Part shown: positions 8,764 through 26,141 of the stretch, piece by piece
Layout of the letters: every line of letters begins with the position of its first letter
How positions within the stretch are numbered: position 1 is the stretch's first letter
Source of the DNA: a virus
IMG/VR virus record: IMGVR_UViG_3300027259_000042
Coordinates: 1-26,494 of that record
Direction: 5' to 3' (one strand)
DNA length: 26,494 bases
Notes under the pieces: model-generated
What the model saw: the letters and a program-made list of their open reading frames with translations, nothing else
Told to the model about the DNA's origin: nothing
Databases searched by the model: none
Made by a program: the position numbers and the translations under genes

Positions 8764-11526
8764 ATGCAAGTATATAACGCCCTACAAGTTAAGGCAGGTG
8801 CCAAGACAGAGTACAATAAAATGGGTACTCTTAATCAACCTATTCAATTTTTACCTAGATCTAAAAAAGATGAAGATTGGGCAGCTTGGTGCTTAGACTG
8901 GCTGGAGTGGCAAGGATTGAAGATGGTGCGCAGAAATGCTAGGCGCCTTATGAAGAACTACAAACTTGCTAAGGGTATTATTGATAGGACAGACTATGTA
9001 ATTGAGGAGGATAATGAGTATGCTGATTTAATTGATACTCTTACAAAGGAAGATGCATCTGCATTGGAACTTAAGTTCTATCCTATTATCCCTAATGTAG
9101 TTAATACTCTTACTTCTGAGTTTTCTAAAAGAGTTACTAGAGTAACTTATGGTGCTGTAGATGAATACTCCTACAATGAAATGTTGGAGCAAAAGAAAGC
9201 TGAAGTAGAAGAATTACTTGTTGGTGATGCTAAAAGAAAGATTACTGAGAGATTGATAATGATGGGTGCAGACCCAGAAAGCCCTGAGTTTCAGGAACAA
9301 ACATCTCCAGAATCTTTAAGAAGCCTACCTGAAATTGAGGCTTTTTATCAGAAAGATTACCGCTCAATGGTTGAGCAATGGGCAGAACATCAGCACAGAG
9401 TTGATACTGAACGTTTTCATATAGATGAATTAGAGGAGCGTGGTTTCCGTGATCTCCTTATTGCTGATAGAGAATTCTGGCATTTTAAAATGATGGAGGA
9501 TGACTATGATGTAGAATTGTGGAATCCTGTTTTAACATTCTATCAAAAAGCTCCAGAGACTAGATACATTTCTGATGGTAACTGGGTTGGTAAGTATGAT
9601 ATGATGACTGTTGCTGATGTTATTGACAAGTATGGTTGGTTGATGACAGATAAGCAAATGGAATCAATTGAACTTATCTATCCTGTAAGATCTGCCGGTT
9701 ACCCTATCCAGGGTTATCAGAATGATGGTACATACTATGATGGTACTAAGTCACATGCATGGAATACAAACATGCCTTCACTTGGTTACAGACAGTTTAC
9801 TTCTATGTGGGATAGTGCTCAATATGGAGGTGATATTGTAAACTGGATCATGATGGAGAATGAAGACTACCTGGATATGGGTATGTCTAACCTTCTTAGA
9901 GTTACCACAGTATATTGGAAGTCACAAAGACGTGTAGGTCATCTCACAAAAATCACATTATCTGGTGATATTGTCACTGAAATAGTGGATGAGGACTACA
10001 CAATTACTGATAAACCACAGTATAATACCAGTTTGATAAAGAATAAAACTAAGAATACTCTTGTTTTTGGTGAGCATATTGACTGGATTTGGATTAACCA
10101 AGTATGGGGTGGTGTAAAGATTGGTCCAAACAGACCTACATTCTGGGGTACAAATAACCCCGGTGGTATTACTCCTATCTACTTAGGTGTAAATCAAAAT
10201 CATATTGGTCCGCTTAAGTTCCAATTTAAAGGTGATAATTCTCTGTATGGATGTAAACTTCCTGTAGAGGGTTCCGTATTCTCTGATAGAAATACTTACT
10301 CAAGGTCTCTTGTTGACTTGATGAAACCTTTCCAGATTGCTTATAACCTTGTAAATAACCAGATTCAGGATATCCTGGTAGATGAGTTAGGAACTGTTAT
10401 TATGCTTGATCAGAACTCTTTGCCAAGACACTCACTGGGTGAGGACTGGGGAAAGGGTAACTTTGCTAAAGCATATGTGGCAATGAAGAACTTCCAGATG
10501 TTACCTCTGGATACTTCTATTACTAATACTGAGAATGCTCTAAACTTTAACCATTTCCAGAAACTGGATATGTCACAGACAGAGCGTTTGATGTCTAGGA
10601 TTCAGTTAGCTCAGTACTTTAAGCAACAAGCATTTGAGGTAATTGGTATTACCCCACAGCGCTTAGGTCAGGAGATTACCAGACAAACAGCTACAGGTGT
10701 AGAGCAATCTATCAACGCTAGTTATGCTCAGACTGAAACATACTTTATTCAGCACTGTGATTATCTAATGCCTAGAGTGCATCAAATGAGAACTGACTTG
10801 GCTCAGCATTACCACTCTACAAAACCATCGGCAAGACTTAATTACATAACCTCTCTTGATGAAAGAAAAAACTTTGAGATAAATGGTACTGATTTCTTGC
10901 TCCGTGATATTAATGTGTTTGCTACTACTAAAGCAAACCAGAGAGCTATTCTTGAACAGCTTAAGCAGCTTGCTCTTAGCAATAATACTTCTGGTGCTAG
11001 TATCTATGATTTGGGTAATATTATTAAGTCTGATTCTATTTCAGAAGTTACGCACATACTCAAAGCAGCAGAGAAGAAATCGGATGCAGTTAGACAGCAA
11101 GAAATGCAGCAACAGCAGCAAATGCAAGAGCAGATGATTCAATCTAAGCAGCAAGAAGAACAGTTGAAGCTAGAATTCCAGGCATCTGAAAAAGATAAGG
11201 ACAGACAAGCAGATATTCTCATTGCTCAAATTAGATCTGCAGGATATGGTGCCATGCAAGATATTAACCAGAACATGCAGTCTGATTACATGGATGCTTT
11301 GGATCAAATTCAGAAGTCTGAAAACTACCAGAGCACTATGGATCTCACTAGAGAAAAAGAAGCTAATAAGATTATGACATCTAGAGAGAAGCTGAATGTT
11401 GAAAGAGAGAAGATAAATGCTCAAAGAGAAATAGCAAATACACAGCTTCGTGTTGCACAGGAGAATAAAAACAGGTTTGATGCACCTAATAAAACAGAAC
11501 AAAAGGATAAAAAGAAGAAGAAGTAG
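8764..11526 (+). CDS. Portal protein
   Basis: The 920-aa protein directly follows terL and precedes the scaffold-like and capsid genes, the portal position. It would form the dodecameric ring through which DNA enters. The N-terminal and central parts mix helices and strands with many Trp and Tyr, including PNVVNTLTSEFSKRVTRVTYG and the stem-like region KPFQIAYNLVNNQIQDIL (about residues 520-540), typical of portals. From about residue 770 the protein becomes extremely rich in Gln, Glu and Lys (EMQQQQQMQEQ), a long coiled coil ending in poly-Lys. This tail could contact packaged DNA or internal proteins. At 920 aa it is large compared with common portals. Confidence 0.85.
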   Translation: MQVYNALQVKAGAKTEYNKMGTLNQPIQFLPRSKKDEDWAAWCLDWLEWQGLKMVRRNARRLMKNYKLAKGIIDRTDYVIEEDNEYADLIDTLTKEDASALELKFYPIIPNVVNTLTSEFSKRVTRVTYGAVDEYSYNEMLEQKKAEVEELLVGDAKRKITERLIMMGADPESPEFQEQTSPESLRSLPEIEAFYQKDYRSMVEQWAEHQHRVDTERFHIDELEERGFRDLLIADREFWHFKMMEDDYDVELWNPVLTFYQKAPETRYISDGNWVGKYDMMTVADVIDKYGWLMTDKQMESIELIYPVRSAGYPIQGYQNDGTYYDGTKSHAWNTNMPSLGYRQFTSMWDSAQYGGDIVNWIMMENEDYLDMGMSNLLRVTTVYWKSQRRVGHLTKITLSGDIVTEIVDEDYTITDKPQYNTSLIKNKTKNTLVFGEHIDWIWINQVWGGVKIGPNRPTFWGTNNPGGITPIYLGVNQNHIGPLKFQFKGDNSLYGCKLPVEGSVFSDRNTYSRSLVDLMKPFQIAYNLVNNQIQDILVDELGTVIMLDQNSLPRHSLGEDWGKGNFAKAYVAMKNFQMLPLDTSITNTENALNFNHFQKLDMSQTERLMSRIQLAQYFKQQAFEVIGITPQRLGQEITRQTATGVEQSINASYAQTETYFIQHCDYLMPRVHQMRTDLAQHYHSTKPSARLNYITSLDERKNFEINGTDFLLRDINVFATTKANQRAILEQLKQLALSNNTSGASIYDLGNIIKSDSISEVTHILKAAEKKSDAVRQQEMQQQQQMQEQMIQSKQQEEQLKLEFQASEKDKDRQADILIAQIRSAGYGAMQDINQNMQSDYMDALDQIQKSENYQSTMDLTREKEANKIMTSREKLNVEREKINAQREIANTQLRVAQENKNRFDAPNKTEQKDKKKKK

Positions 11527-11630: not shown

Positions 11631-12854
11631 ATGAGTAACACACAAGATAATACCGTTGTTGAGCAGGTTGATTTAGACCTGGACAACATACTTGGTATGC
11701 CTGGAGCTGAGAGCGTAATGCTCCCAGAGGAAAAGAAACCAAATGTCTTTTCTGCAGGCAAACCAGATTTATCTTTTATGGAAAACCCAGCATCTGCGGA
11801 TGACTCTGGTGAAAATAAAGATAAGGATTCAGCAGACTTTGCTGATGTACTTAAAGACCTAGACCCAGAAGATGCATCATTAGGTGTACAACCTAGTGAT
11901 GATGAACCTAAGAAAACTCCTGGTCGTGCTAAAGTTGCAAAAGATGGTACAGTAGAACTAGTTAAAAAACTAATTGATGCTGGTAAGATTGTACCATTTG
12001 ATGATGATAAGCCTATTGAAGATTATACTCTTAATGACTTTGAAGAACTTTTAGAAGCAAACTTTGAAGAAAGAGAGAATACAATAAGACAATCTACTCC
12101 TGCTGAATTCTTTGAATCTCTCCCTGAGGAGCTTCAAGTAGCTGCTAAATATGTAGCTGATGGTGGTCAGGATCTTAAAGGACTATTTAAAGTTTTGTCA
12201 CATGTTGAGGAAACTTTTGAGTTGGATCCTACTGAGCCAAATCACCAAGAAAGAATTGTAAGAGAATATCTCTCAGCTACAAACTTTGGTACTCCTGATG
12301 AAATTCAGGAAGAAATTGATAGCTGGAAAGACAGAGATGAACTTCAAGCTAAGGCTGGTAAGTTCAAACCAAAGTTGGATGCAATGCAGGCTAAAGTTGT
12401 GCAGCAGAAACTTGCACAACAAGAGCAGATGAAAAAACAACAAGCTGCACAAGCACAGGCTTATATGCAGAATGTATATAACACTATTGCTCCTGGTGAA
12501 CTCAATGGCTTGAAACTAGACCGTAAAACACAGGAATTACTGTATGGCGGTTTGGTGCAACCATCATATCCTAGCATTAGTGGTAGACCCACTAACTTAC
12601 TAGGTCACTTGTTGGAAAAATACCAATATGTAGAACCTAACCACGGTTTGATTGCAGAAGCTCTTTGGTTACTGGCAGATCCGGATTCTTACAGAAGTAG
12701 AATTATGGATCAAGCTCAGAAAGTGCAGGTTGAAAAAACTGCCCGTATGCTGAAGACAGAGGAAGCAAGAAGAAGTACAGGTTCTCCAATTGTAGAGAAA
12801 GAGGAAGTGAAGCAAAGAACAATCAAACGTACTAATAACTTTTTTAAACGCTAA
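11631..12854 (+). CDS. Scaffold-like capsid assembly protein
   Basis: This 407-aa protein lies between portal and major capsid genes, the usual place for a scaffold. The first 100 residues are acidic and disordered-looking (Asp/Glu/Ser/Pro-rich). The middle is helical with a Gln/Ala/Lys coiled coil (about residues 255-285), and the C-terminus is basic (KQRTIKRTNNFFKR), as expected for a scaffold tail that binds the capsid shell. No protease motif is visible, so a head protease is less likely. It begins after a promoter element and the leader TTAAACCAACAAAAAAT, and would be co-transcribed with the capsid gene. Confidence 0.7.
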   Translation: MSNTQDNTVVEQVDLDLDNILGMPGAESVMLPEEKKPNVFSAGKPDLSFMENPASADDSGENKDKDSADFADVLKDLDPEDASLGVQPSDDEPKKTPGRAKVAKDGTVELVKKLIDAGKIVPFDDDKPIEDYTLNDFEELLEANFEERENTIRQSTPAEFFESLPEELQVAAKYVADGGQDLKGLFKVLSHVEETFELDPTEPNHQERIVREYLSATNFGTPDEIQEEIDSWKDRDELQAKAGKFKPKLDAMQAKVVQQKLAQQEQMKKQQAAQAQAYMQNVYNTIAPGELNGLKLDRKTQELLYGGLVQPSYPSISGRPTNLLGHLLEKYQYVEPNHGLIAEALWLLADPDSYRSRIMDQAQKVQVEKTARMLKTEEARRSTGSPIVEKEEVKQRTIKRTNNFFKR

Positions 12855-12883: not shown

Positions 12884-14512
12884 ATGGCAACTCCAGTTTT
12901 AAATAATGGTATATTTCTACGAGATACCAACTACGCAGCTAGTTCACACGTAGATTCATACCACCTGGTAAACATGCTGAAGAATGCAGAACCAATGGAC
13001 ATGGGTCCAGTTGATCTGTGGGCAATGGCTCAAAAAGTCGAAATGCCACTCTATCAGATGTCTTCCTTCGGTGGTAAGAATGTGATCATGGTTGATAATG
13101 CAAGAGGTGAGTACAAGTGGCAGACCCCAGTTGTACAAGATCTTCCTTATGTTATCGAAGACATTGAATCAACCAATGTTACTAAAGGTATTGATGGTAC
13201 CACCTTCAAAATCAAAATCTCTCGCAGAGAATTTGGTCATGGTGACATCATCACTTACGATAAGTACAATGGTGTGGAAATGTACATTGTTCCTGATCAG
13301 GATATTATCCCACTCGGTGATGGTTTTGTTTACACTGTACAACTTGTAAACAATGACAGCACTAAGTTCTTGGATAACAAGTATCTTGCTTCTGGTACTA
13401 AAGTATTCCGTAAGGGTTCTGCCCGCGGAGAGTATGGTGAAAGATTCTCTGACATTCAGATCCAGTCAGGCTTCCGTGAATTCTACAATTTTGTAGGTGG
13501 TGCTGAAGCTCACGTACACTATTCTATTTCTAGCCGTGCTGATCTTATGATCAAGGGTGGTATGAATGCAGATGGTACTGTACCTGTAACTGAAATCTGG
13601 AGAAACTTTGACCAGAACATGGATCCATCTATCACTAACCTTGAGAACATGGTTAGCCGTATGGGTAAGGATTATGTAAAGCGTGCAATGTCAAATGGTA
13701 ACCTTTCACGTACCTTCTTGACCACAATGGAAGCAGCTCACTTGACCAAAGTTGCAAGTGACATCGAAACTTACTTGATGTGGGGACAAGGTGGTAGAGT
13801 TCGTCAGGATGGTCCAGATGATGTAAGATTGTCTGTGGGTCTTTGGAAGCAGCTTGATAACTCTTTCAAGAGAGTTTACAACAAGTCTGGTTTCAATCTT
13901 GACCTGTTCCGTTCTGAAATCTACAACTTCTATGCTGGTAAGGTTGAGTTCAAGGGTCCAGATCCTAAGCGTCAACTGATTGTACAAACTGGTATGGGTG
14001 GTATGAGAATGGTTAACGAAGCTATCAAGAAAGAGGCAGTTAACTCAGGTCTTGTAATCCAAGCTGCTGACAATGCTGGTATCGGTGCTATCACTGGTAA
14101 GGGCATGGATCTCGGATTTGGTTTTGCATACACTTCTTACGTTATCCCATTCTTGGCAAACGTGAAGTTTGTGTTGAACCCTGCTTTTGACAACGTACAC
14201 ACAAATGACATTGAAAACCCAATCATTGATGGTTTCCCATTGTCATCTTACAACTTCATTATCTTTGATATCACAGATAATACTAACGACAACATCTTCT
14301 TGTTGAAGTTGAGCTGGGATAACCAATTGAAGTGGTGGTACCAAAACGGTACAATGGACTACATGGGTCGTACCCAAGGATTCCAGTCTTCTGGACAGTT
14401 CAATGGATACCGTGTATATATGACACAAACAATGCCTGCGATTTGGGTAAAAGACCCAACCAAAGTGTTGAAGATCGTTATGAGAAACCCTGTAACTGGT
14501 GGATCATTCTAA
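12884..14512 (+). CDS. Major capsid protein
   Basis: The 542-aa protein follows the scaffold-like gene and is closed by a strong terminator. It is Gly/Asn-rich with evenly mixed strands and helices, no Cys-rich or membrane regions, and codons biased towards CGT, AAC, TTC and GGT compared with the AGA- and AAT-rich neighbours, typical of a very abundant protein. Stretches such as QSGFREFYNFVGGAEAH and the C-terminal KVLKIVMRNPVTGGSF fit an HK97-like shell protein, but no invariant motif can be verified by eye. Position, size and codon use together support the call. Its leader, TTAACCTTTTATAATTTAAGTTAAA, resembles those of other abundant-protein genes here. Confidence 0.85.
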   Translation: MATPVLNNGIFLRDTNYAASSHVDSYHLVNMLKNAEPMDMGPVDLWAMAQKVEMPLYQMSSFGGKNVIMVDNARGEYKWQTPVVQDLPYVIEDIESTNVTKGIDGTTFKIKISRREFGHGDIITYDKYNGVEMYIVPDQDIIPLGDGFVYTVQLVNNDSTKFLDNKYLASGTKVFRKGSARGEYGERFSDIQIQSGFREFYNFVGGAEAHVHYSISSRADLMIKGGMNADGTVPVTEIWRNFDQNMDPSITNLENMVSRMGKDYVKRAMSNGNLSRTFLTTMEAAHLTKVASDIETYLMWGQGGRVRQDGPDDVRLSVGLWKQLDNSFKRVYNKSGFNLDLFRSEIYNFYAGKVEFKGPDPKRQLIVQTGMGGMRMVNEAIKKEAVNSGLVIQAADNAGIGAITGKGMDLGFGFAYTSYVIPFLANVKFVLNPAFDNVHTNDIENPIIDGFPLSSYNFIIFDITDNTNDNIFLLKLSWDNQLKWWYQNGTMDYMGRTQGFQSSGQFNGYRVYMTQTMPAIWVKDPTKVLKIVMRNPVTGGSF

Positions 14513-14888: not shown

Positions 14889-15908
14889 ATGAGTGATACT
14901 TTTACAATGGTGCAAACGCCTGGTACTAAATCCGGGCCTATTGCAATCCGCCCATTCTTCAATCAAAGCGTCTCTAACATGGGACTTGAGAAGTATGGAT
15001 TATCTTTATTCGAGGGAGTTTTTCATGAGGAACAACTGGCATGTATTGAGCAGAATGGTGTAAAGAGATACATTACAGGTCTGAATGAATTTGCTCCTGA
15101 GATTAAAATGATTAGAGATGAGGATCAGAAACAAGCTAGAATCCATGAGATTCGCTCTGCTGTATCTGAACTAGAAAAAGAAATGGCAGCAAATCCAATT
15201 GAGATTTCTGACCCACATTTCTGGAGCAAAGTAAAATTATTACGCCCTGAGAATGATGATTTCTGGACCAAGATTACATTGAGATGTGGAAACACACCTA
15301 TGTTTCTTGATCCGGTAAAAGATCCTTTTGATAGAATTAGACTGTATGCTATTGAAGCAGGTGGGTTTAGCATTATAGCAAAGAGCTATGAGGATGCTAA
15401 AACAAGACCTACTCCAGTTAAATTTTATTTGGATAAATATGAAGAAACTGCTGGAAGCAAAACTGAAATCAAGAAACTTCGTAACAAAGCTCTTGCTGAG
15501 CTTCAGAAGTTGTTTGATAAGAATCCAGTTAAGATGATGTACGTAGCTAAGATTGTAGATATCAATAGTGTTCAGTACAAGAAGTCTACACCTAATGATG
15601 TTATCTATGATAACATGGATATCTATATCAATGGTGAAGGTTCTGAGAGAAGTCAGACAAGGGCTGCCCAAACTTTCTTGGATACTGTAAATCTTGATAT
15701 GGAGACATTGAAACTTAAGGCAGTTATCAGAGATGCTAGCTACCTGAGATTTATTTCTACAAAACCTGATGGATTTATCTACCATACATCATCATCTACT
15801 ATGTTAGGTAGAAACCCTGCAGATGTTTTAGAATATCTGAAGAATCCTTTGAATGAGGAGATACTTAAAGACCTTTTGAAATCAACCGAAAAATACTGGA
15901 ATCAATAA
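14889..15908 (+). CDS. Conserved 339-aa virion-cluster protein, function unknown
   Basis: The protein is soluble-looking, with a short N-terminal extended part (about residues 1-45), a charged helix (about 75-100) containing DEDQKQARIHEIRSAVSELEKE, and a mixed alpha/beta remainder. DPHFWSKVKLLRPENDDFW and PVKDPFDRIRLYAIEAGG look like conserved cores. No enzyme motif, signal peptide or TM segment is visible. It opens the gene run after the terminator at 14823-14852, and its leader TAAACCAACAAAAA plus ATGAGT is almost the same as that of the scaffold-like gene. This suggests matched translation and a structural or assembly role, but that is inference. Confidence 0.65.
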   Translation: MSDTFTMVQTPGTKSGPIAIRPFFNQSVSNMGLEKYGLSLFEGVFHEEQLACIEQNGVKRYITGLNEFAPEIKMIRDEDQKQARIHEIRSAVSELEKEMAANPIEISDPHFWSKVKLLRPENDDFWTKITLRCGNTPMFLDPVKDPFDRIRLYAIEAGGFSIIAKSYEDAKTRPTPVKFYLDKYEETAGSKTEIKKLRNKALAELQKLFDKNPVKMMYVAKIVDINSVQYKKSTPNDVIYDNMDIYINGEGSERSQTRAAQTFLDTVNLDMETLKLKAVIRDASYLRFISTKPDGFIYHTSSSTMLGRNPADVLEYLKNPLNEEILKDLLKSTEKYWNQ

Positions 15909-16221: not shown

Positions 16222-16434
16222 ATGGCAGCTAAAAAATCAACTACTAAGAAATCATCTCCTACTGTTTCCTCATCTTCTAAAGCAGAAATGAGAAAGTGGG
16301 AAGTAGAATCTGCTATGAACACTCTCCGCAGAGCAGATGAAATCCGTAAGGATACTAAGATGATGGGTGATGTAAAGAAGTTTGCACAGGAGCAGATTAA
16401 AATGCTAGGTGGAATTGCTAACCCTAAGAAGTAA
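16222..16434 (+). CDS. Small basic helical protein
   Basis: This 70-aa protein has a Lys/Ser/Thr-rich disordered N-terminus (residues 1-20) and a charged helical body (about 22-62) ending MLGGIANPKK. It has no cysteine and no membrane segment. It is the second member of the lysine-rich small-gene run and overlaps the next gene by one base (TAATG). The function is unknown. Confidence 0.6.
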   Translation: MAAKKSTTKKSSPTVSSSSKAEMRKWEVESAMNTLRRADEIRKDTKMMGDVKKFAQEQIKMLGGIANPKK

Positions 16435-16679
16435 TGGCAAAGAAAGTTAGAGTATCAGCTGGTGGTGAAAAGCATGTAGTCTATAAGAAGACTACTAAAC
16501 GTGGCAAAGGAGAGCCTGGTGATATTATGGTGAACCATCCTACCAAAGATAAGGGTAAGTGGGATACTATAAATCTAACTAAGATAGGTAGAGCAAAGAC
16601 AGTAGCAGAAGGTGTAGCATCCACTAAAAAGTGGCACAAGGATAACCCTGATTACAAATACAAAAAGAAGAAGAAGTAA
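16434..16679 (+). CDS. Small lysine-rich protein
   Basis: About a quarter of the 81 residues are Lys, and the C-terminus is KYKKKKK. The body (KVRVSAGGEKHVVYKKTTKRGKGEPGD, described in part) has alternating hydrophobic and basic residues compatible with short strands. The charge fits nucleic-acid binding or internal-head packing, but no fold is recognised. It belongs to the tightly packed small-gene island, with the next ATG two bases after its stop. Confidence 0.6.
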   Translation: MAKKVRVSAGGEKHVVYKKTTKRGKGEPGDIMVNHPTKDKGKWDTINLTKIGRAKTVAEGVASTKKWHKDNPDYKYKKKKK

Positions 16680-16680
16680 T

Positions 16681-16929
16681 ATGGCAAAGACACCTGCATG
16701 GCAAAGAAAAGAAGGTAAGTCACCAAGTGGTGGACTTAATGCAAAAGGTCGTGCTTCTTATAATAAGCAGACAGGTGGTGATTTAAAGGCACCACAACCT
16801 GAGGGTGGGTCTAGAAAGAAGTCTTTTTGTGCAAGGATGTCAGGGATGAAGAAGAAGCTTACCTCTAGCAAAACAGCTAATGATCCGGATTCAAGGATCA
16901 ATAAAGCTTTGCGTAAATGGAAATGTTAA
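16681..16929 (+). CDS. Widespread small phage protein (SFCARMSGMKKKLT motif)
   Basis: The 82-aa product reads MAKTPAWQRKEGKSPSGGLN, then GRASYNKQTGG, QPEGGSRKKSFCARMSGMKKK and ends INKALRKWKC. I recognise this arrangement from memory as a very common uncharacterised family in tailed phages and cyanophages (a DUF6321-type protein; the number is to be checked). Two cysteines (in SFCARM and at the last residue) and the invariant Trp/Lys tail are notable. Its function is not established. High conservation amid variable small genes points to a real role in the virion or DNA handling. Confidence 0.75.
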   Translation: MAKTPAWQRKEGKSPSGGLNAKGRASYNKQTGGDLKAPQPEGGSRKKSFCARMSGMKKKLTSSKTANDPDSRINKALRKWKC

Positions 16930-16946
16930 CGTAAATTAGTAATACT

Positions 16947-17099
16947 ATGAAAAGCAAATGCATGCAGTGTGGTGGTGCCAAAAAAATGAAAGCAGGTGGA
17001 TTTCCTGATCTTACCGGTGACGGTAAAGTAACCAAAGCTGATGTCCTTAAAGGACGTGGTGTATTTAAAAAAGGTGGAGCTGTTAAAAAGAAAAAGTAA
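16947..17099 (+). CDS. 50-aa basic protein with calcium-loop-like motif
   Basis: The ATG at 16947 starts a frame with CMQC (a CxxC knuckle at residues 5-8) and then PDLTGDGKVTKADVLKGRG (about 20-38). The latter matches the dockerin/EF-hand calcium loop DxxGDGxVxxxD. A Lys-rich tail (AVKKKK) follows. Such a loop in a 50-aa phage protein is unusual. Its stop overlaps the next ATG (TAATG at 17097-17101). Calcium binding is inferred from the motif only. Confidence 0.6.
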   Translation: MKSKCMQCGGAKKMKAGGFPDLTGDGKVTKADVLKGRGVFKKGGAVKKKK

Positions 17100-17245
17100 T
17101 GGCTGCCAAGAAAGACAAGAAATGGATACAGAAGGCTATCAATCCTGCACATAAAGGATACTGTACTCCCATGACTAAATCTACTTGTACTCCTAAGAGA
17201 AAGGCACTTGCTATTACTCTTAAGAAAATGGCTAAAAAGAGATAA
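17099..17245 (+). CDS. 48-aa basic small phage protein
   Basis: The product MAAKKDKKWIQKAINPAHKG continues with two cysteines (GYCTPMT and TCTPKR) and a helical basic tail ALAITLKKMAKKR. From memory it resembles small proteins present in the same kind of lysine-rich gene run in other phages. The start overlaps the previous stop by one base. The function is unknown. Confidence 0.6.
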   Translation: MAAKKDKKWIQKAINPAHKGYCTPMTKSTCTPKRKALAITLKKMAKKR

Positions 17246-17263
17246 CTATTAAACTTATATAAA

Positions 17264-17458
17264 ATGAAAAAATCAGGTGGTGTTTATGTAAAGCTGAATG
17301 GTAATCAAGCTGTTCAGAAAGTAGCAGGTTCTAAAGGTGTTGGCACTACTAAAAGTGTTAAGATCAATGAAGCTCAAAAGAAAGCAGGTGGCCGTGTAGG
17401 TGGTGGCAATAAGTCTGCTTCTGTAGAACCTAAGAGCAAGAAGAAAAACGTTAAGTAA
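17264..17458 (+). CDS. Small Lys/Gly-rich protein
   Basis: This 64-aa protein is Gly-, Lys- and Val-rich with a disordered basic C-terminus (EPKSKKKNVK). The N-terminal KKSGGVYVKLNGNQAVQKVAG may form a few strands. No motif is recognised. The stop overlaps the next ATG (TAATG), so translation is probably coupled to the following gene. Confidence 0.55.
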   Translation: MKKSGGVYVKLNGNQAVQKVAGSKGVGTTKSVKINEAQKKAGGRVGGGNKSASVEPKSKKKNVK

Positions 17459-17745
17459 TGAAAAAGAAAATGCCTAAGATGGATATGGGAGGTCTCTATT
17501 CAGGGGCTTCTATGTCTCGTGATGTAGAAAATCAGCCAGTATCTGGATATGGTACAAGTCAGTCTAGTGCTGATGGACCTTGGCGCCCAAAGACAGGTTT
17601 TGGTAGATTTGTACAAAGAGTGACTGGTATTGGTGACAACAAAGGTTTTGATTATAGGGGTCACGGTAAATCAAATAAACATGCTGGTAAAAATGCCGGC
17701 AGACCCTGTCGTAGAGGTAGTAATGGTCAAATGATTTGTAGCTAA
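17458..17745 (+). CDS. Small basic Gly-rich protein
   Basis: The 95-aa product starts MKKKMPKMDMGGLYSG, is rich in Gly, Ser and Arg, and has two late cysteines (RPCRRGSNGQMICS). The pattern looks largely disordered and positively charged. It is the last member of the small-gene island, two bases before the connector-like gene. The function is unknown; an internal virion protein is possible. Confidence 0.55.
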   Translation: MKKKMPKMDMGGLYSGASMSRDVENQPVSGYGTSQSSADGPWRPKTGFGRFVQRVTGIGDNKGFDYRGHGKSNKHAGKNAGRPCRRGSNGQMICS

Positions 17746-17747
17746 TT

Positions 17748-18452
17748 ATGTTAAACAGTACCCTTAGATTAAAGATTCAACAGCGGTTAAACAAACTCGC
17801 TAGTCAGGACTATGATAATATAGAATGCTGGCAGATTGTTGAAGCTTTTAATAAAGCTCAAATTGAGTGGGTACGTAGACAAATTATGGGACGCAACCTT
17901 GCACAAGCAGGTGCGGAACAGACTGTAAGAAAGATTGATGATTTACAAAATCTACTTACACCCCTACCGTTAACTTCTATAAGTGCTGGTGATTACTATT
18001 TAACTCAGCCTCTACCAGATAACTATCTAGAGTATCATAAGATTGATATTACAGCTACAAAAGACTGTTGTACTGATCCCAAGAAACTTATAGTCTATTT
18101 AGTTGAGGAAGTTAACAGTAGCATACTCCTAAGAGATGAGCTCCGCAAACCTAACTTTGAGTGGGCTGAGACTTTCTGTACAGTTGTAAACAATGCAATC
18201 AGGGTCTATACAAACAGAGAATTTGATATTAGAGATATCACTTTGATGTACTATAGACAACCCATAAGAATTGCTATTGCAAACTGTGGTGACCCATATA
18301 CCGGGGTAATAACAAGCAGAGATGTAGAGTGTGAATTCAGAGATGATATAGCAGAGGTAATTGTAGATGCAGCAGCATCTATCTTAGCAGCTGACATAGA
18401 ATCATTTAGTCAGTATACTCGTACTTCTCAACAATCAGAAAATAACACATAA
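17748..18452 (+). CDS. Head-tail connector/adaptor-like structural protein
   Basis: The 234-aa protein begins with helices (MLNSTLRLKIQQRLNKLASQDYDNIECWQIVEAFNKAQ), has a central beta part (about residues 75-190) and ends with a helix containing DDIAEVIVDAAASILAADIES. A helical start, a beta centre and an amphipathic C-terminal helix of this size fit the adaptor (gp4/gp6-like) ring proteins that bind under the portal. The fit is by pattern only. It is followed directly, with a TAATG overlap, by the Dps-like gene, and both precede the major tail-type protein, consistent with a neck position. Confidence 0.55.
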   Translation: MLNSTLRLKIQQRLNKLASQDYDNIECWQIVEAFNKAQIEWVRRQIMGRNLAQAGAEQTVRKIDDLQNLLTPLPLTSISAGDYYLTQPLPDNYLEYHKIDITATKDCCTDPKKLIVYLVEEVNSSILLRDELRKPNFEWAETFCTVVNNAIRVYTNREFDIRDITLMYYRQPIRIAIANCGDPYTGVITSRDVECEFRDDIAEVIVDAAASILAADIESFSQYTRTSQQSENNT

Positions 18453-18895
18453 TGATGAATAACATGTTAAAAAGACCGCTTAAGATGCAGTCAGAACAAA
18501 AACAATCTACTTCTAGCAAAGGTGCTGATATGGGTCCTCTTGTATCAGATTTCTTAGAAGCTGTAACATCTGTACACAAAGCTCACCTTAAAATCACAGG
18601 ACCTGGTTCATATGCTGCTCATACAGCAATGGGTGCATTCTATGATGAGATTGGTGGTTTAGCAGATACTATTGCTGAATCATATCAGGGTGTTACTGAA
18701 ACACTTTTGGATATTCCTGCAGCTCAGCAAGCATCCTTTACTAGTGCTGGGGATTGTGTAAACTTCTTGAATGGTTTGTACCAAAAGGTAGATGCTGCTC
18801 AAAAAGCATGTGCATATTCTGAGATTATCAATGACCTAGACAACGTCAAGTCATTGATTAATAGCACTAAGTATAAACTAATTTTCTTGAAATAA
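18452..18895 (+). CDS. Dps/ferritin-like protein with ferroxidase ligands
   Basis: The 147-aa product has a 25-residue polar N-terminal extension and a helical body. VHKAHLKITGPGSYAAH followed by FYDEIGGLADTIAESYQG matches the Dps pattern HxxHWxVxGPxFxxxH...FDExxxxxDxxAER. The four ferroxidase ligands of Dps are all present with exactly the Dps spacing: His45, His57 (+12), Asp72 (+15) and Glu76 (+4). Dps proteins form 12-mer shells that oxidise and store iron and protect DNA. Here the gene is in the virion cluster between a connector-like and a major tail-type protein. It may be an oxidative-protection protein or a ferritin-fold virion part (a DUF5856-type assignment is to be checked). Confidence 0.7.
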   Translation: MMNNMLKRPLKMQSEQKQSTSSKGADMGPLVSDFLEAVTSVHKAHLKITGPGSYAAHTAMGAFYDEIGGLADTIAESYQGVTETLLDIPAAQQASFTSAGDCVNFLNGLYQKVDAAQKACAYSEIINDLDNVKSLINSTKYKLIFLK

Positions 18896-18966: not shown

Positions 18967-20277
18967 ATGGCATATTTTAATCACGCCTTTAATAAGGTAT
19001 TTGTTGGTACCAGTGGTTTTCAGGCTACTGCTACTACAGCTTCCTCTGCTTTTACAGCAGGGCAGTTTGGATTCGTAGATCCTAATACTTGGACAGTTCC
19101 TGCTGATGTTGACGCAGCATCTGCTCTTCGTTGCCCACTTGTACTTGTTGCTGGTTCAATCTATCAAAATGATAAGATTGGTCCATTCCACGGTGGATAC
19201 AAAGAGTCTAGCAAGTCTAAGATCATCAATCCTAAGTATGTTACTAAGTTCTACAGAGTAGATGATTGTCCACTTCAGCAAGCTACTATATCTGTAGGTG
19301 TAACTCCTGATACTGAAGCTCTTGCTGATGACTCAGCAAAGTGGGCAATTCCTGGTCAGACTGTGTGTAATCCTAATTTCAACTGCGGTGAAACTTATTA
19401 CCTGCGTCTTGATCTTAAGGGCTCACCTGCACTTCGTTTCTTGTCTCGTAACTCTTACTTTACAGCAAGTGCTTATACAGGTTGTTGCGCTGATCCAAAT
19501 GCTGCTCCAGCAACTGTTGACCCAACAATTGTTTACATTGCATGGGCTAAGCAACTTTTGAACTCTCCTTTGATTAATCCATTTATTCAAATTGAAGTTT
19601 TTGATATTGGTGCTGGCTCATTAGGTGTAATGACTAAGGACAACGTAAATGTTGCTAGTGAAGACTGGAACACATATGTTGCTGATGCTTCTCCTGCAGC
19701 TGGTGCTGGTGCTGGTATGTACATTACTGGTGCTTACATAGATACTCAGTTTGGTGACTGTACTTTCTACCCAACAGATGCTTTGCAAGCTTACTTGGAG
19801 CCAGTTAAAATCTACGCTTCTGAAGTAGATTACAATGGTGATCCTTGTGCATTTACAGGTCTTTGTGTAGCTAATACATGTTTGCCTGTTCAAGGTTCTG
19901 GATACGGTGAGAATGTAATTCGTGAGTTGATCCTTTCAGAAGGTTATGCACAGTCTCCTTTCTATACTGGTATGGATCTTCGTATCCGTGAAATTACTCA
20001 GGGATACAATGTAACTGATACTATTGATAGATTTACTCAATACACTCGTTACTTTATCCAGCACAGTGTTCCACGTTTTAACAATCCATCTGGCACATTT
20101 GATAATGATCAGTATTTGTTGGAAATTGTTACTTCTGCACCAATTGCAGTATTTGAACAATTTGTATATGATTGGCTTACCAATGCAGGTAATGGCTGTG
20201 ATCTAGATCCAACAGGAAATACTGACACAGGCGGTCCAATTGTTTATGGTTGTCCAGCAGTTTGCACACTTCCATAA
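18967..20277 (+). CDS. Major virion protein, probable major tail protein
   Basis: This 436-aa protein stands in its own unit between a promoter element and a strong terminator. It uses CGT, CTT and GGT codons heavily, as the capsid gene does, which points to high expression. It is beta-rich with Ala/Gly/Thr loops and scattered cysteines (for example TGCCAD, YGCPAVC), and has no membrane or enzyme motif. The later part (IRELILSEGYAQSPFYTGMD, RIREITQG) is helical and looks conserved. The position after connector-type genes suggests a tail tube or sheath protein. Another abundant shell or sheath component is not excluded. Confidence 0.6.
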   Translation: MAYFNHAFNKVFVGTSGFQATATTASSAFTAGQFGFVDPNTWTVPADVDAASALRCPLVLVAGSIYQNDKIGPFHGGYKESSKSKIINPKYVTKFYRVDDCPLQQATISVGVTPDTEALADDSAKWAIPGQTVCNPNFNCGETYYLRLDLKGSPALRFLSRNSYFTASAYTGCCADPNAAPATVDPTIVYIAWAKQLLNSPLINPFIQIEVFDIGAGSLGVMTKDNVNVASEDWNTYVADASPAAGAGAGMYITGAYIDTQFGDCTFYPTDALQAYLEPVKIYASEVDYNGDPCAFTGLCVANTCLPVQGSGYGENVIRELILSEGYAQSPFYTGMDLRIREITQGYNVTDTIDRFTQYTRYFIQHSVPRFNNPSGTFDNDQYLLEIVTSAPIAVFEQFVYDWLTNAGNGCDLDPTGNTDTGGPIVYGCPAVCTLP

Positions 20278-20342: not shown

Positions 20343-20903
20343 ATGGAGAAACATCAGTTAGCTTTAGATATCCCTGATACCTTATCAGGTTGCATATTCC
20401 GGGTAGTTGACGCTAGTATTTATAGCTCAGCTGGGGTAGTAGATTGTACCAGATTGGATATAACTCCTCCTGGTTTTACATCTCCTTTTTATGCATCTAA
20501 CCTAGAAACAGGGTTTATTGCAAATCTTACCGCTTGCAATGTAGGACTCCAAACAGCTAACTGTGGGAATACCTATAACGACTTTGTGGATGGTGTCTAT
20601 AATGTGAAGTATAGCATCAACAATAGCACTGAGGTTTATGTTGAGTATAATCATTTGAGAATTACTTCTGCATTAAACCAGATAAATGATCTACTTTGTT
20701 GTTTAAATTTGCAAGCATGTGACCCACAAGGTCCCGTAAAAGATAAACTAAGAGAAGTTCAATTGCTTGATACTTTTTTGAAAGCAGCTAAAGCAAAAGT
20801 AGAATACTGCAACAGTATAGACCAGGGTATGGATATGTACAGATATGTAGTAAAGAAATTAAACAAACTTGCTTGTGGCTGCGGTTGTTCATCGTGTAAC
20901 TAA
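20343..20903 (+). CDS. Cys-containing tail-associated protein, function unknown
   Basis: The 186-aa protein has a beta-rich first half (about residues 1-105), including YNDFVDGVYNVKYS, and a helical second half (INDLLCCLNLQAC, then KLREVQLLDTFLKAAKAKVEYC). It ends in a Cys cluster ACGCGCSSCN. The YNDF(V/I)(D/N)G motif recurs in the protein at 23283 (YNDFINGKWSFKFT), so the two share a domain. Such proteins near tail genes could be neck, tail-completion or fibre-attachment parts. The terminal CGCGC cluster suggests metal binding. No established family is recognised. Confidence 0.55.
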   Translation: MEKHQLALDIPDTLSGCIFRVVDASIYSSAGVVDCTRLDITPPGFTSPFYASNLETGFIANLTACNVGLQTANCGNTYNDFVDGVYNVKYSINNSTEVYVEYNHLRITSALNQINDLLCCLNLQACDPQGPVKDKLREVQLLDTFLKAAKAKVEYCNSIDQGMDMYRYVVKKLNKLACGCGCSSCN

Positions 20904-21070: not shown

Positions 21071-23272
21071 ATGGCATTATGCTTTGAGTTAGAATCTTGC
21101 TATCCGGATATAAATCCTAGCATATACACTAGTACTGATATATCTCAGTTTCTTAACCAGTATGTGTCTATATGTGGTGCATGCTATTTGGTAAAAAATA
21201 GTACATCTGCAAACTGTACTACACAAGTAGCTTTACCTGCAAACTCATTTTCTACATGCGAAGAATGCTATGGTATAAATGGCAGTGGTGTCTGCGGCAC
21301 TTGTCCAGAATTTTATGAACCAGTTATATTAGAAGACGGTACAGAAGTATGTCAAGCAACTTCTGGTTATCCTGCTGAGTGGAGCGGAGAAACAGCAACA
21401 GTTGATATTGGAGATAGATCAAGTGGCTATGGTATTTTAGGATTAAATCTTTTAGAAAATGCTACAAATAAAATATGGCCAATAATTGGTTATCAAACTG
21501 AAAATTTTCCTATTACACCTTGTCCTCTTCCACCCAATCCTGCTTGTGATGGTCCGGGTTTTTGGACTAACTGGGGATTTAAAGATGATTGGGGTAATGG
21601 TAGTTATGTTTTTGGTCAATTAGGTTATTCTGCCTTTGATAATTTTACTCCTACACCAACTCAAGGTAAAACAAGTGCTATTGATGTAAATCTTTTATTT
21701 AGATCAAATAATACAAAGGGCAGATTAAATACAGGAGGTATTTGGGCTTATGGTGCTGGTGGAGCTGAATTAGCTTGTCCTGGTATAACTAGTCAAATGC
21801 CTGCTCCTGGGTCAACAGTACAGCAGTTTATACAAGGAAATACACTACAATGCAACAATTCTGATGTAAATACCAGTTATATAAAATACGATTTTTGTTT
21901 TTCTGTAGGTGTTGAAAAAGAGTATTTAATAGGGTTTGCTGCAGATAATGCTGCAAGAATAATTTTAGATTCTCAACCTTTTATAGCAATAGTTGCAGAT
22001 AGTCCAGGTAGATGTGGTTTTGGCTATCGATCTTGTTTTCAGCAGTGGCACGTAGTACCAATAACTTTACAACCAGGTACTCATACCATTACTCTTATTG
22101 GTTATAATGAGTCTATTGGCACTGATGGTAACTACGCTGCTGAGATTTATAATCTAACATCACAAGAGCTTAAAGATCAATTTTTAAATCTTCCGTTGCC
22201 ATCATATGATGCTGCTGTAGCAGCTCTTGAACCTTATATTTTATTTAGTACTAAAAATTATATAGGTACTAACAGTACTATACCTATAGGTGAAGGTGAA
22301 TGGACTTGTTTAGATGGTTCTACTCCGGATCCATGCAGCCAAAGTGGTCAACCGGAATGTCCTTGTGTATCAAATATACCAGCAATAGCTTGTTGTTATG
22401 AGCTTACAGAGTGTAATGAAGAGACAGTTATATACACTAGCACTGATTTATCACAATATCTGGGTCAAGTCTTAACATTTAATGAGCTCTCTGGTTGTTA
22501 TACAGTTAGGCAAAGTGATAACCCATGTCCACAAGGATCTCAATCTGTTACAGTATCTGATACTTATTCAAATTGCGAAATCTGTTCACTCTCATTTAAA
22601 CTATATAACTGCAAAGATCAAAATGTTACATTACAAACAGCTAATATAGCTTTTGAAGCATACCTTGGAAAAACTGTAAATCTTGTTGAGTATCCTGGTG
22701 ATTGTTGGCAAGTAGGTCCTAATGATCAAAAAACTTTACCACTAGAACCTCTAACAGTAGATGGTCAACCATTTGATACATGTGAGGAGTGTGATCCAAA
22801 AGAGTTTGGTCTAACAAATTGTGTTAATGGAGTAACTGTTATATCTACAGTAGATCTTTCAGCATATGTAGGTAAAGTTGTTAAGGCAGATAACTTCCCA
22901 GGTCTTTGTTTTACAGTAGAAGAGAACCCTTGTAATTGTTTAAAGATAACTATCAATGGTCAAGTTTATAATATTGACAGGGAAGAAAACTTCTTTAACG
23001 GAAGACCATATTTTCAGTTCAACACTGTAAATAATCTACCTATTGTTATAGCATATGATAGCAATGAGCTAAGATGGGAAGTGTATAATCCAAGTACTCA
23101 GGGTATCTATTTTTATTCTAACTTAAACATAGATTGCCCTACAACAAGTGTTTGGACAAAGTTAGATCCTACTTTTCCAGGAGATATTAAAGTTGAAGCC
23201 TGTACTTTACGTATATTGAATATATCTCCAACAGAAGAATTTAATGACTGTGAGTGTTGTGTAAATTGTTAA
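21071..23272 (+). CDS. Large Cys-module tail protein with lectin-like insert
   Basis: The 733-aa protein has about 42 cysteines and is built from a repeated module of about 65 residues. In the module, a start like L(x)2C is followed by YTSTDLSxYLGxVV, a GxCYxV turn and a closing CEEC or CEIC. Copies lie at about residues 4-66, 442-505, 509-574 and 578-623. The first copy is separated from the other three by a 370-residue insert. Residues about 270-363 of the insert (FCFSVGVEKEYLIGFAADNAARIILD, then HTITLIGYN and GNYAAEIYN) resemble a PA14/GLEYA-type sugar-binding beta-sandwich. A role in host recognition is inferred. The CEEC pairs may bind metal or form disulphides. Confidence 0.6.
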   Translation: MALCFELESCYPDINPSIYTSTDISQFLNQYVSICGACYLVKNSTSANCTTQVALPANSFSTCEECYGINGSGVCGTCPEFYEPVILEDGTEVCQATSGYPAEWSGETATVDIGDRSSGYGILGLNLLENATNKIWPIIGYQTENFPITPCPLPPNPACDGPGFWTNWGFKDDWGNGSYVFGQLGYSAFDNFTPTPTQGKTSAIDVNLLFRSNNTKGRLNTGGIWAYGAGGAELACPGITSQMPAPGSTVQQFIQGNTLQCNNSDVNTSYIKYDFCFSVGVEKEYLIGFAADNAARIILDSQPFIAIVADSPGRCGFGYRSCFQQWHVVPITLQPGTHTITLIGYNESIGTDGNYAAEIYNLTSQELKDQFLNLPLPSYDAAVAALEPYILFSTKNYIGTNSTIPIGEGEWTCLDGSTPDPCSQSGQPECPCVSNIPAIACCYELTECNEETVIYTSTDLSQYLGQVLTFNELSGCYTVRQSDNPCPQGSQSVTVSDTYSNCEICSLSFKLYNCKDQNVTLQTANIAFEAYLGKTVNLVEYPGDCWQVGPNDQKTLPLEPLTVDGQPFDTCEECDPKEFGLTNCVNGVTVISTVDLSAYVGKVVKADNFPGLCFTVEENPCNCLKITINGQVYNIDREENFFNGRPYFQFNTVNNLPIVIAYDSNELRWEVYNPSTQGIYFYSNLNIDCPTTSVWTKLDPTFPGDIKVEACTLRILNISPTEEFNDCECCVNC
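22394..22939 (+). repeat. Three tandem Cys modules inside the tail gene
   Basis: Copies at 22394-22585, 22595-22792 and 22802-22939 share the pattern described for the gene at 21071. A further copy lies alone at 21080-21268. They are diverged at the DNA level except for short runs such as ATATACACTAG followed by ACTGAT. Confidence 0.6.
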
Positions 23273-23282
23273 AATAAAAGAA

Positions 23283-24485
23283 ATGACTACTTCCTGCATA
23301 TGCGTAACTCTAAATAGTTGTTTAACAGGATTACCTGTTTACTATTATACGTGTAAGCAGTCAACTGCGCAAACTACTTTTCTTAATGGATTGACTCAAG
23401 GTCAGTTGATTGAGATTAATGATGCAGCCAACTTTCCTGAGACATACTATACTTTCCAAAGTTTTTGCACAATTCCTGGTGTGGTATCTGCAGCATGTAC
23501 AACATGTACTAATGCACCTAATAGAATAACAGATGACCCAGGACGCTCTATAGATTTTTGGATTAAGTCCAATGAAGTAACGTGTCCTACTGATAATGCT
23601 TATAACGATGTCTATGTACTTACTAACTGCTTGGCTAACGTAGTAGTTAATAACAACAACATTGATAGTATTCAAGATACACCGTTATTGGCTTTAGTTA
23701 CATCTAGTGATCTGTATCTATATACAGACATGATTGTTAAGATTGAAGGTTACCCGGACAATTGCTACAAAGTTTCAGGTCCATTTACTCCCGGTGAGGG
23801 TGCTTCTTTAAGACCTGCCTATACTATAGCAAATGCCTATAGTACTTGTGAGTGTTGTTTACCTGCAGCACCAGAACCTAGTTGTTGTGAGATACCTAAG
23901 TATACCCAGAAACCTGCAAAAGATTTCTTTAGAATAACAGTATCAGACTCTGAGATTAAGGCAAATACAAACTTTGCAAACAACTATTACAAGTTGTTCA
24001 TGGGAATCAGACATGGCATACATAGTTGTTGCACTGGAATAGACTATGATAAGTTGTGGATAGACAAAGAGATAAGTGATTTAGAAAGTATTAACTACAG
24101 TACGTGTCAAGTAATTCTTCCCACTCTATGTCTGTTTGTTACTGGAAATGATATCTGTGGTTCTCAGGTTGCTACATACAATGACTTTATCAATGGTAAG
24201 TGGTCATTTAAGTTTACCCGTAGTACAGGTGTAAATGGTATAATCTACTGGGATATTCAGAACAGTTACTGGGTAATTGTTAATGAAGACACTGGTGTCA
24301 TAGCAGCTAAGTTGCCAATAAACAGTGATTATCCGATTGGTACAAATGACCAGTGGCTTGTTGTAAATAAGTCAGCGTGCCTGTCACCTGACTGTGGGTT
24401 ATCTACATGGACAGTAGACTGCTCTTACTATGATGCAGATCCATGTGATAATTGCAACGAACCTGAAAATGTAGTAGCAGAATAA
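23283..24485 (+). CDS. Second Cys-module tail protein
   Basis: The 400-aa protein starts with two diverged copies of the same module (CVTLNSC up to CTTC, about residues 5-80; VYVLTNC to STCECCLP, about 107-198). Its C-terminal half (about 215-380) carries a YNDFING motif shared with the gene at 20343. It ends with YYDADPCDNCNEPENVVAE. No enzyme motif is visible. Adjacent genes with the same module and similar size suggest duplication and joint assembly, probably at the tail tip or fibre base. This is inference from shared modules and position. Confidence 0.55.
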   Translation: MTTSCICVTLNSCLTGLPVYYYTCKQSTAQTTFLNGLTQGQLIEINDAANFPETYYTFQSFCTIPGVVSAACTTCTNAPNRITDDPGRSIDFWIKSNEVTCPTDNAYNDVYVLTNCLANVVVNNNNIDSIQDTPLLALVTSSDLYLYTDMIVKIEGYPDNCYKVSGPFTPGEGASLRPAYTIANAYSTCECCLPAAPEPSCCEIPKYTQKPAKDFFRITVSDSEIKANTNFANNYYKLFMGIRHGIHSCCTGIDYDKLWIDKEISDLESINYSTCQVILPTLCLFVTGNDICGSQVATYNDFINGKWSFKFTRSTGVNGIIYWDIQNSYWVIVNEDTGVIAAKLPINSDYPIGTNDQWLVVNKSACLSPDCGLSTWTVDCSYYDADPCDNCNEPENVVAE

Positions 24486-24509
24486 AAAAATAATTAGTAT
24501 ATTAAAGAT

Positions 24510-26141
24510 ATGGCGCTTCCTATTAAATCAAACAACACGCAGCAGGGTTGTAACCCTATTTCATCTAACTGCGTTGTATGGCAAGGACCGGACATTCCAT
24601 GTATCAACTTATGCACTGGGGATTCGGTTAGTGATGTTGTTGCTAAAATGGCAACAGAGTTATGCGAGATATCAGATCAACTAGATATTAGTCTTTTAGA
24701 TCTATCTTGCTTTAACCCATTATGCCCAACTCCACAGAACTTTAGGGATGTAATGCAACTTATTATTGATAAGATTTGTGCATTAGAAAATCCAAATGCT
24801 GCAGATGGTGGCATTACTACTTCAGGTTGTCCATCTGATTGTGAGATAGCTGTAGCAACATGTCTTCAGTATACTGATAATTTAGGAAACACTGTTACTA
24901 GTCTTCCAATTAAGGATTATGTAATTCTTATTGGTAACAGAATTTGTACAATACTTACTAGCATTTCTAATCTACAGACACAGATTAACGCTTTAGATAC
25001 AAGAGTAACAAATCTTGAAAATGGTGGTGGTGGCGGTGGAGGTAGCACTAGTTTTAATGTAACTAGTGATTGCCTTGCTACAAGTCCGGTTACTCTTGCA
25101 GAGTATATAAACTTATTAGATGATGCTTTTTGTATACTACAATCTAATACAGGAACAGTAGGTCAGTTTACAAGTGCTTCTTCGGCTGCTGCATGCGTCA
25201 CTGGTAGTAGTCCTCAGATAGCTAATCCATCAGCATCAATGAGTGTTGATAGGAACTGGATTCCTTCAGCTACTAGTTCATTTCAACAAATCCAAAATCT
25301 TTGGGTTACAGTTTGTGATCTTAGAGCTGGAATAACTGCTCTTCAAGCGCAGCTAAATGAGTGTTGTGCTCCAGAGGTACCTTGTCCTAACAATCTACCA
25401 AGACCTACATTTGAACTAAATAAAGACGGAGTTGCTAATGAACTTTGGTTTAAAGTTTCAGGTAGCCCTCTTTCTCCGGCAGGAAATGTTTTAATTGGTG
25501 GTCAAGAATGGAAACTTGTTAGATTTGAAGGTTTAGTTATTCCATCATCTAGCGGTATACCAGAATCTATAAGTGTTCCAATACCTAATCCTTCATATGC
25601 AAGCGTAATAAATTATACCGGTGGAACTAATACTAATAAGCTAGTAGAAGTTTCTGGAATAAGTAGTTCTCTTCAGGTTATAGTAAGCGGATTGTTCTAT
25701 TGGCAAAATGTTACAACTGAACAAGAATGCTCCGTTGCTCCTGTTAATAATGGACAAGCAATTAGAAATCTACTTCTAGCAGCATGTCCAACAGTACCAC
25801 CTACTGCAAATTCTAATATTTTAGTTAATCCATCAGCAGTTTCTTTAACATGCAGCCCTTCAAATGGTGCCGCCATTACGCTTTCTTTAAATAGTAACTA
25901 TGCTCCAGCAGGGTTACTAGCTCCTAGTGGTTCTGTTTCAATGACTGTTGCATATACAAATGCAAGTAACCAGAATCAAAGTTTTTCTCCAACACTTAGT
26001 GTAAATAGCCCTTCAGTAAATATAACTAATATAGATTGTAGCTCAGCTGTTCAGGTTACGGTGACAGGAGTTAGTCAAGCGGGTATAAATGTGCCTTGTA
26101 ACGTTCAATTTACTGTTAATATTCCAGGTCCTACAAACTAG
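24510..26141 (+). CDS. Coiled-coil tail-fibre-like protein
   Basis: The 543-aa protein starts with a Cys-rich region (about residues 14-110). A helix with heptad-like spacing follows (ILTSISNLQTQINALDTRV, about 147-168), then a seven-glycine hinge (about 172-178). A second helical stretch (about 255-285) and a Thr/Ser/Asn-rich beta region to the end complete it. The C-terminal part from about 420 (SLTCSPSNGAAITLSLNSNY, then VSMTVAYTNASN) reads as an Ig-like fold. Coiled coil plus hinge plus Ig-like tip is usual in trimeric phage fibres. Receptor binding is inferred, and no family is recognised. Confidence 0.6.
   Translation: MALPIKSNNTQQGCNPISSNCVVWQGPDIPCINLCTGDSVSDVVAKMATELCEISDQLDISLLDLSCFNPLCPTPQNFRDVMQLIIDKICALENPNAADGGITTSGCPSDCEIAVATCLQYTDNLGNTVTSLPIKDYVILIGNRICTILTSISNLQTQINALDTRVTNLENGGGGGGGSTSFNVTSDCLATSPVTLAEYINLLDDAFCILQSNTGTVGQFTSASSAAACVTGSSPQIANPSASMSVDRNWIPSATSSFQQIQNLWVTVCDLRAGITALQAQLNECCAPEVPCPNNLPRPTFELNKDGVANELWFKVSGSPLSPAGNVLIGGQEWKLVRFEGLVIPSSSGIPESISVPIPNPSYASVINYTGGTNTNKLVEVSGISSSLQVIVSGLFYWQNVTTEQECSVAPVNNGQAIRNLLLAACPTVPPTANSNILVNPSAVSLTCSPSNGAAITLSLNSNYAPAGLLAPSGSVSMTVAYTNASNQNQSFSPTLSVNSPSVNITNIDCSSAVQVTVTGVSQAGINVPCNVQFTVNIPGPTN

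Follow-up and report, generated by a model that had tools for sequence, protein, structure and literature searches.

Why should a phage keep a gene for a Dps-like, predicted iron-oxidising protein among its virion genes? The question is raised by a stretch of 26,494 nucleotides, here called the window, which comprises positions 1–26,494 of the IMG/VR virus record IMGVR_UViG_3300027259_000042. At 18452–18895 on the plus strand it contains an open reading frame of 147 aa, for which an earlier note had proposed a ferroxidase of the Dps type that serves either in the virion or in the cytoplasm of the infected cell. The reading frame is real and has the position and length given there. Its start ATG overlaps the stop codon of the upstream gene in the arrangement TAATG, and a second ATG follows in frame at 18455.

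The likeness to Dps goes beyond loose similarity, as had been claimed. The protein matches the Pfam family DUF5856 (PF19174) with E=3.7e-16 and 60.4 bits against a curated cut-off of 34.6, and all 50 aligned relatives match this family as well. It is further matched by phrog_858, a phage Dps-like family annotated as starvation-inducible regulator (E=7.7e-20). The single window sequence matches Dps chains weakly (E about 0.04), and a profile built from the 50 relatives retrieves HP-NAP together with many Dps chains from the PDB, the best with E=3e-6. Whether the monomer folds as a four-helix bundle had been named as a point to check: AlphaFold2, run on the alignment of 50 relatives, predicts such a bundle of the Dps type with a pLDDT of 89.3 (above 90 for most of the core) and helices at residues 28–47, 53–82, 99–119 and 123–145. 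The best PDB folds for this model are Dps throughout, with probability 1.00, TM-scores up to 0.72 and modest Foldseek E-values of about 2e-3. The short BC helix of the Dps family is absent from the model, in which residues 83–98 are coil. The curated Dps equivalog model does not recognise the window protein (14.7 bits against a cut-off of 114), and Pfam Ferritin (PF00210) gives no match to it and weak matches in 11 of the 50 relatives. In BFVD, three predicted viral proteins named ‘prohead protease’ (A0A6J7WIS1, A0A6J7WPK9 and A0A6J7XDU5) match the Dps-like model over about 120–150 residues, suggesting that other phages have Dps-like domains joined to a protein of head assembly.

The predicted ferroxidase ligands are His45 (18584–18586), His57 (18620–18622), Asp72 (18665–18667) and Glu76 (18677–18679), all encoded on the plus strand. 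The spacings of 12, 15 and 4 residues and the TGPxxxxxH context described by the earlier note can be read directly from the sequence, the latter as TGPGSYAAH. Homologues lacking the ligands were sought as well, and each of the four residues turned out to be invariant in 94 of 94 aligned sequences. The mean column identity of this alignment is only about 52%, yet the ligands are constant; His42 is likewise invariant (94/94). This conservation rules out a chance similarity to Dps. The position four residues after the second histidine is Asn in 73, Gly in 18 and Ala in 3 of the 94 sequences. In E. coli Dps this position is the acidic residue Asp67. As the acid is missing from all 94 sequences, the predicted site is a four-ligand version. 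For Listeria Dps the metal-binding residues have been named as His31, Asp58 and Glu62 (PMC8389677). The nearest cellular relatives are mostly proteins of Bacteroidota with 22–33% identity, too distant to settle a cellular origin. As judged by homology and modelling, the product of 18452–18895 is a DUF5856/Dps-like mini-ferritin with a predicted ferroxidase site.

The gene is embedded in a Crassvirales-like module, in which a crAss-type large terminase subunit, portal, major capsid protein (MCP) and ring protein follow each other in order; homology and gene order assign the window to a crAss-like phage. All genes of the module lie on the plus strand. The terminase large subunit (6546–8762) matches phrog_6681 (E=2e-58) and crAss-like terminases, the portal protein (8764–11526) matches phrog_6547 (E=2.6e-95), and the MCP (12884–14512) matches phrog_11589 (E=1.7e-31) as well as Leptolyngbya and crAss MCPs. 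Between portal and MCP a gene of conserved position (11631–12854), scaffold-like by its location, resembles a structural protein of csAssE-Sib (profile E=5.7e-7). A conserved protein after the MCP (14889–15908) matches the post-MCP gene of the gut crAss-like phage cr106_1 (profile E=8e-6).

The two genes that border the Dps-like gene, and thus what we call the slot, were given provisional identities in the earlier note. The upstream neighbour (17748–18452), described there as connector-like, is indeed a homologue of the crAss-like tail ring (adaptor) protein: tblastn finds the ‘ring protein’ of csAssE-Sib (9e-6) and structural proteins of the Cellulophaga phages phi17:2 and phi4:1 (2e-7). Both gp62, the phi4:1 homologue, and gp61, encoded next to it, are listed as virion proteins on MS/MS evidence. 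The downstream neighbour (18967–20277) had been taken for a major tail-type gene; its predicted structure (pLDDT 75) instead matches chain Be of 7qoi, which belongs to the capsid vertex of phicrAss001 (E=1.2e-8, probability 1.00). This border gene was identified by fold search alone, and by size and gene order its likeliest identity is the auxiliary capsid protein gp36. PDB profile searches with both flanking proteins and with 14889–15908 gave no credible match. A further conserved virion gene follows the slot (20343–20903) in most relatives, with a profile match to phi17:2 gp058, which is annotated by similarity to phi4:1 gp56; gp56 was found in virions by MS/MS.

Several other features of the region were noticed. 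Small, very Lys-rich ORFs, possibly encoding internal DNA-binding proteins, lie at 16222–17745 between the 14889-type and ring-protein genes and are variable among relatives. Past the slot, at 21071–26141, there are three large Cys-containing ORFs that differ greatly in length and identity from one relative to another (the first, for example, comprises 646–1166 aa) and probably encode host-contact proteins. A small Cys-rich ORF at 3672–3989 (CQECPN...CCGVCGC), possibly coding for a metal-binding protein, overlaps the 5’ end of an ORF that is read in another frame. A PhoH-like gene is located 5’ of the terminase gene in the window and between the portal and scaffold genes in three relatives (L017, L069, L075). 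The Leptolyngbya phage Lbo-JY46 (L021) shares the gene order of the window from terminase, portal, MCP and 14889-type gene to the ring-protein gene and the two genes that follow it, but its slot is empty. Lbo-JY46 is a cyanobacterial phage, which places a crAss-like head module beyond the phages of Bacteroidota.

A profile scan of IMG/VR with the Dps-like family yielded at least 539 confirmed relatives. The Dps-like gene is directly preceded by the ring-protein gene in 81 of 93 loci and followed by the same downstream gene in 78 of 93. In a second lineage (10/93 loci) it lies directly 3’ of the portal gene, mostly overlapping it, and the P22-like podovirus MW202483 also carries it immediately 3’ of the portal gene. 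The placement within a virion gene cluster, to which the earlier note had drawn attention, is therefore real and strongly conserved; a Dps-like gene in a phage is by itself not odd, as such genes occur in hundreds of GenBank phages. Two loci deserve separate mention. One Dps-like gene (L095:7953-8429) is located outside the slot, lacks the strict form of the N-terminal tag described below and has no recognised head genes in its stretch of the contig. Another locus, with ring protein, Dps-like gene and next gene, comes from a contig labelled as a Sphingomonadaceae MAG (L262, RFPL01000035.1), which is probably of phage origin and was misbinned.

In three loci an extra gene of 208 aa is found between the ring-protein and the Dps-like gene. 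Its product is a canonical ferritin (Pfam Ferritin 1.5e-20; PDB ferritins 8e-23). A scan based on this ferritin returned 66 loci, in most of which the ferritin fills this slot and no Dps-like gene is present; the portal-side lineage has the two genes together. All 46 unique ferritins have the full ferroxidase site (E17, E50, H53, E94, Q127 and E130). To avoid the bias of searching with the cage proteins themselves, we used the ring protein as bait and counted the 74 loci in which both borders of the slot were present. Of these, 51 contain a Dps-like gene, 14 a ferritin gene and 9 nothing in the slot. The ring-bait records carry either a Dps-like or a ferritin gene, with both found in one record. 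Five records with an empty slot, three of which are short fragments, have neither gene. Likewise, in phi17:2, csAssE-Sib and Lbo-JY46 the next structural gene follows the ring-protein gene without a Dps-like gene separating them, which marks the slot as a site of insertion within a pair of virion genes. The empty slots, together with the five records that have neither cage gene, indicate that the cage function is dispensable and unneeded for assembly.

To follow the history of the slot, the MCP, 14889-type and ring proteins of 117 phages were concatenated and a tree was built from them. Dps-like and ferritin genes switch 18 times on this tree, and at least 13 times after collapsing branches with less than 99% support, numbers that recombination among the head genes could inflate. 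By gene content, a large clade of mostly aquatic crAss-like phages keeps the slot for a predicted iron-oxidising cage, either Dps-like or ferritin. Because the Dps-like protein was repeatedly swapped with a true ferritin, there is a strong case that selection at the slot acts on iron oxidation rather than on one fold.

The two kinds of slot protein have a second feature in common. Residues 1–27 of the window protein (18452–18532, plus strand) form a predicted disordered N-terminal tag and flexible linker, with pLDDT values of 51–79 by block and the first helix starting at residue 28. Slot proteins start with a [LI][KSQ]R motif, typically in the form M-E-K-P-R-M-L-K-R, followed by a variable linker and the folded domain; in the window protein the core of the tag is LKR at residues 6–8 (18467–18475, plus strand). 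Counting unique sequences, the motif is present within the first 20 aa of 82 of 98 slot Dps proteins and 23 of 27 slot ferritins. Some Dps-like and ferritin proteins have 11 identical leading residues (MEAKPRMLKRP, MAEQPRNLLKR). The portal-side lineage has MALDINK common to the Dps and the ferritin of one genome. The first seven residues of any Dps are matched by none of 1557 unique other proteins.

The motif is absent from the first 20 aa of 16 ferritins from other contexts, most of which start directly at the ferritin domain, although these tagless ferritins belong to other phage lineages, so that phylogeny confounds this control. It is also absent from the first 20 aa of the 15 portal-side cage proteins, and some slot members lack the LKR form as well. 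In the first locus set none of 504 proteins from nine other identified gene families has the N-terminal motif; the small gene family at 16681–16929 has it in 1 of 34 cases, and unassigned ORFs in about 2%. DpsA of the gut crAss-like phage cr106_1 has no tag-like start. The ferritins of three loci (L106, L129, L134) have N-terminal extensions without the LKR tag; their genes precede the terminase gene by about 2.4 kb and represent another related lineage. A use of the tag as a general cargo signal was considered and rejected: two near-complete genomes each encode one convincing tagged protein, and no other known or likely cargo protein in these two genomes is tagged.

We give about an even chance to the explanation that the tagged mini-ferritin docks onto the assembling virion as particle cargo or as a particle-bound iron cage. 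In this mechanism the cage protein would be made alongside the late virion proteins, and its Dps-type subunits would oxidise Fe(II) at the predicted His/His//Asp/Glu site and store the product in the cage. The disordered N-terminus, [LI][KSQ]R plus linker, may act as a docking signal that anchors the cage to some part of the virion during assembly, and the cage would end up as cargo of the particle or bound to it. There, one may conjecture, it keeps iron and peroxide off packaged or newly made phage DNA. Two folds that have an iron-oxidising cage in common and are often swapped under one tag fit such an iron-cage docking tag. An intact Dps or ferritin cage is about 9–12 nm. In phicrAss001, a precedent for particles with much protein cargo, virions hold about 5.5 MDa of cargo proteins, and the constrictions of their tail barrel are under 50 Å (PMC10172136). 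A cage wider than these sub-5-nm constrictions is unlikely to be delivered into the host, making a role in protecting packaged DNA or assembly more likely than delivery.

The explanation that competes best is a soluble enzyme of late infection, to which we allow a sizeable minority share of the probability. The cage would lower free iron and peroxide in the host cytoplasm, its position among virion genes would reflect late co-expression only, and the tag would serve otherwise, in regulation, in stability or in binding a host or phage factor. Such a role is consistent with the Dps-like genes outside virion modules in T4-like phages (rI.-1) and in cr106_1, with the existence of phages with an empty slot, and with the cytoplasmic protection proposed for DPS in gut phages (PMC8008677). 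However, late expression alone leaves unexplained why one tag is placed on two cages when ferritins and DpsA elsewhere are tagless, nor does it account for the recurrence of the gene in head modules, which three groups of phages show (the ring-side and portal-side lineages and the P22-like podovirus). The earlier note offered a virion and a cytoplasmic role and left the choice between them to others; the exchange of ferritin and Dps and their shared tag, neither of which it could see, favour the docked one.

It is rather improbable that the N-terminus binds DNA in the manner of the E. coli Dps tail and that the cage thereby coats or condenses phage DNA before or during packaging. The tail does have conserved Lys and Arg residues, and the N-terminal extensions of slot proteins carry a median net charge of +1.5 for Dps and +3 for ferritin. 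This charge is small, however, ranging from -3 to +7, and what is conserved is a short motif and not general basicity. Moreover, classical ferritins are not known as DNA binders.

Still less credit is due to the idea that the peptide is functionless by itself and a relic of recombination, ferritin and Dps genes having been swapped downstream of a conserved stretch. Identical N-termini do occur in phages with otherwise similar modules, and the Leu codons of the tag are more uniform than those of the gene core (TTA 82% vs 46%), so that part of the resemblance may reflect a recent exchange of 5’ ends. On the other hand, the Lys codons vary about as much as in the core (AAG 19% vs 25%) and the Arg codons are only somewhat narrower (AGA 91% vs 77%); the motif persists across divergent Dps proteins while the linker changes freely, and the portal-side lineage has its own, different shared N-terminus. 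A four-helix protein that has given up iron chemistry and serves in structure or scaffolding, as the missing acid after the second His and the surrounding structural genes might suggest, can practically be dismissed, since the four ligands are invariant in the Dps-like proteins and the ferritins that replace them retain the full ferroxidase site (46/46).

Dps-like genes in phages are already known, from T4-like phages (rI.-1), gut phages (PMC8008677) and crAss-like phages (DpsA), and have so far been read as cytoplasmic stress protectors. In the open-licence literature we found no report of a conserved virion slot, of Dps/ferritin interchange or of a shared tag. Neither a paper on Dps in the virions of crAss-like phages nor a published function for DUF5856 was found there, and on phage ferritins the same literature gave nothing of use. 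Interchangeable cages under one tag point to an iron function tied to particle assembly, and the carriers are abundant, mostly uncultured aquatic phages. If the docking explanation is true, their particles would carry an iron-sequestering cage that guards the DNA outside the host. Two questions become testable. One, posed for marine phages by the ‘Ferrojan horse’ idea, is whether phage particles contain iron that was loaded biologically; the other is whether a phage capsid with iron cargo is a working counterpart of encapsulins, the shells of which share the phage HK97 fold. In addition, the tag could be used to load proteins into virions.

Compared with known systems, the closest relatives by family are DUF5856/phrog_858 proteins such as rI.-1 of the T4-like phage RB49, which have the same His/His/Asp/Glu positions where aligned. 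The gene of RB49 differs from that of the window in adjoining the lysis-inhibition gene rI, away from the head genes, and in lacking the LKR tag. With bacterial Dps and HP-NAP the window protein has the predicted fold and the four ferroxidase-site positions in common; unlike bacterial Dps it lacks the short BC helix and the acid four residues after the second His and has an extra N-terminal tag. Gut phages have been described with DPS enzymes, and these (DPS of the ‘Gratiaviridae’, PMC8008677, and DpsA of cr106_1) are likewise phage-encoded Dps folds, some from the same viral order. The gene for DpsA of cr106_1 has tRNA genes around it and lies well away from the capsid block; the N-terminus of its product is unrelated to that of the slot Dps proteins. 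The related phage phicrAss001 carries large protein cargo in capsid and tail, namely C1/C2 and a virion RNA polymerase; no iron protein was reported from its virions, in contrast to the cage proposed here (PMC10172136).

A further parallel is offered by the iron systems of encapsulins (encapsulated ferritin-like proteins, IMEF), where ferritin-like cargo is likewise encoded beside capsid-type shell genes. Ferritin-like proteins inside encapsulin operons carry a targeting peptide, in one case with a linker of 37 residues, and those outside have none (PMC6668986). The tags of encapsulin cargo are C-terminal and that of the slot proteins is N-terminal; furthermore, the neighbouring shell is here a DNA-filled virion, and encapsulation of the cage is here a proposal. 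The slot nevertheless has the same trait of a short terminal tag with a flexible linker inside the cluster and its absence outside. It is a tentative reading, to which we lend somewhat less than even weight, that the slot is an encapsulin-like system within the virion and supplies a tagged Dps-like or ferritin cage that docks into or onto the particle and protects its DNA outside the host.
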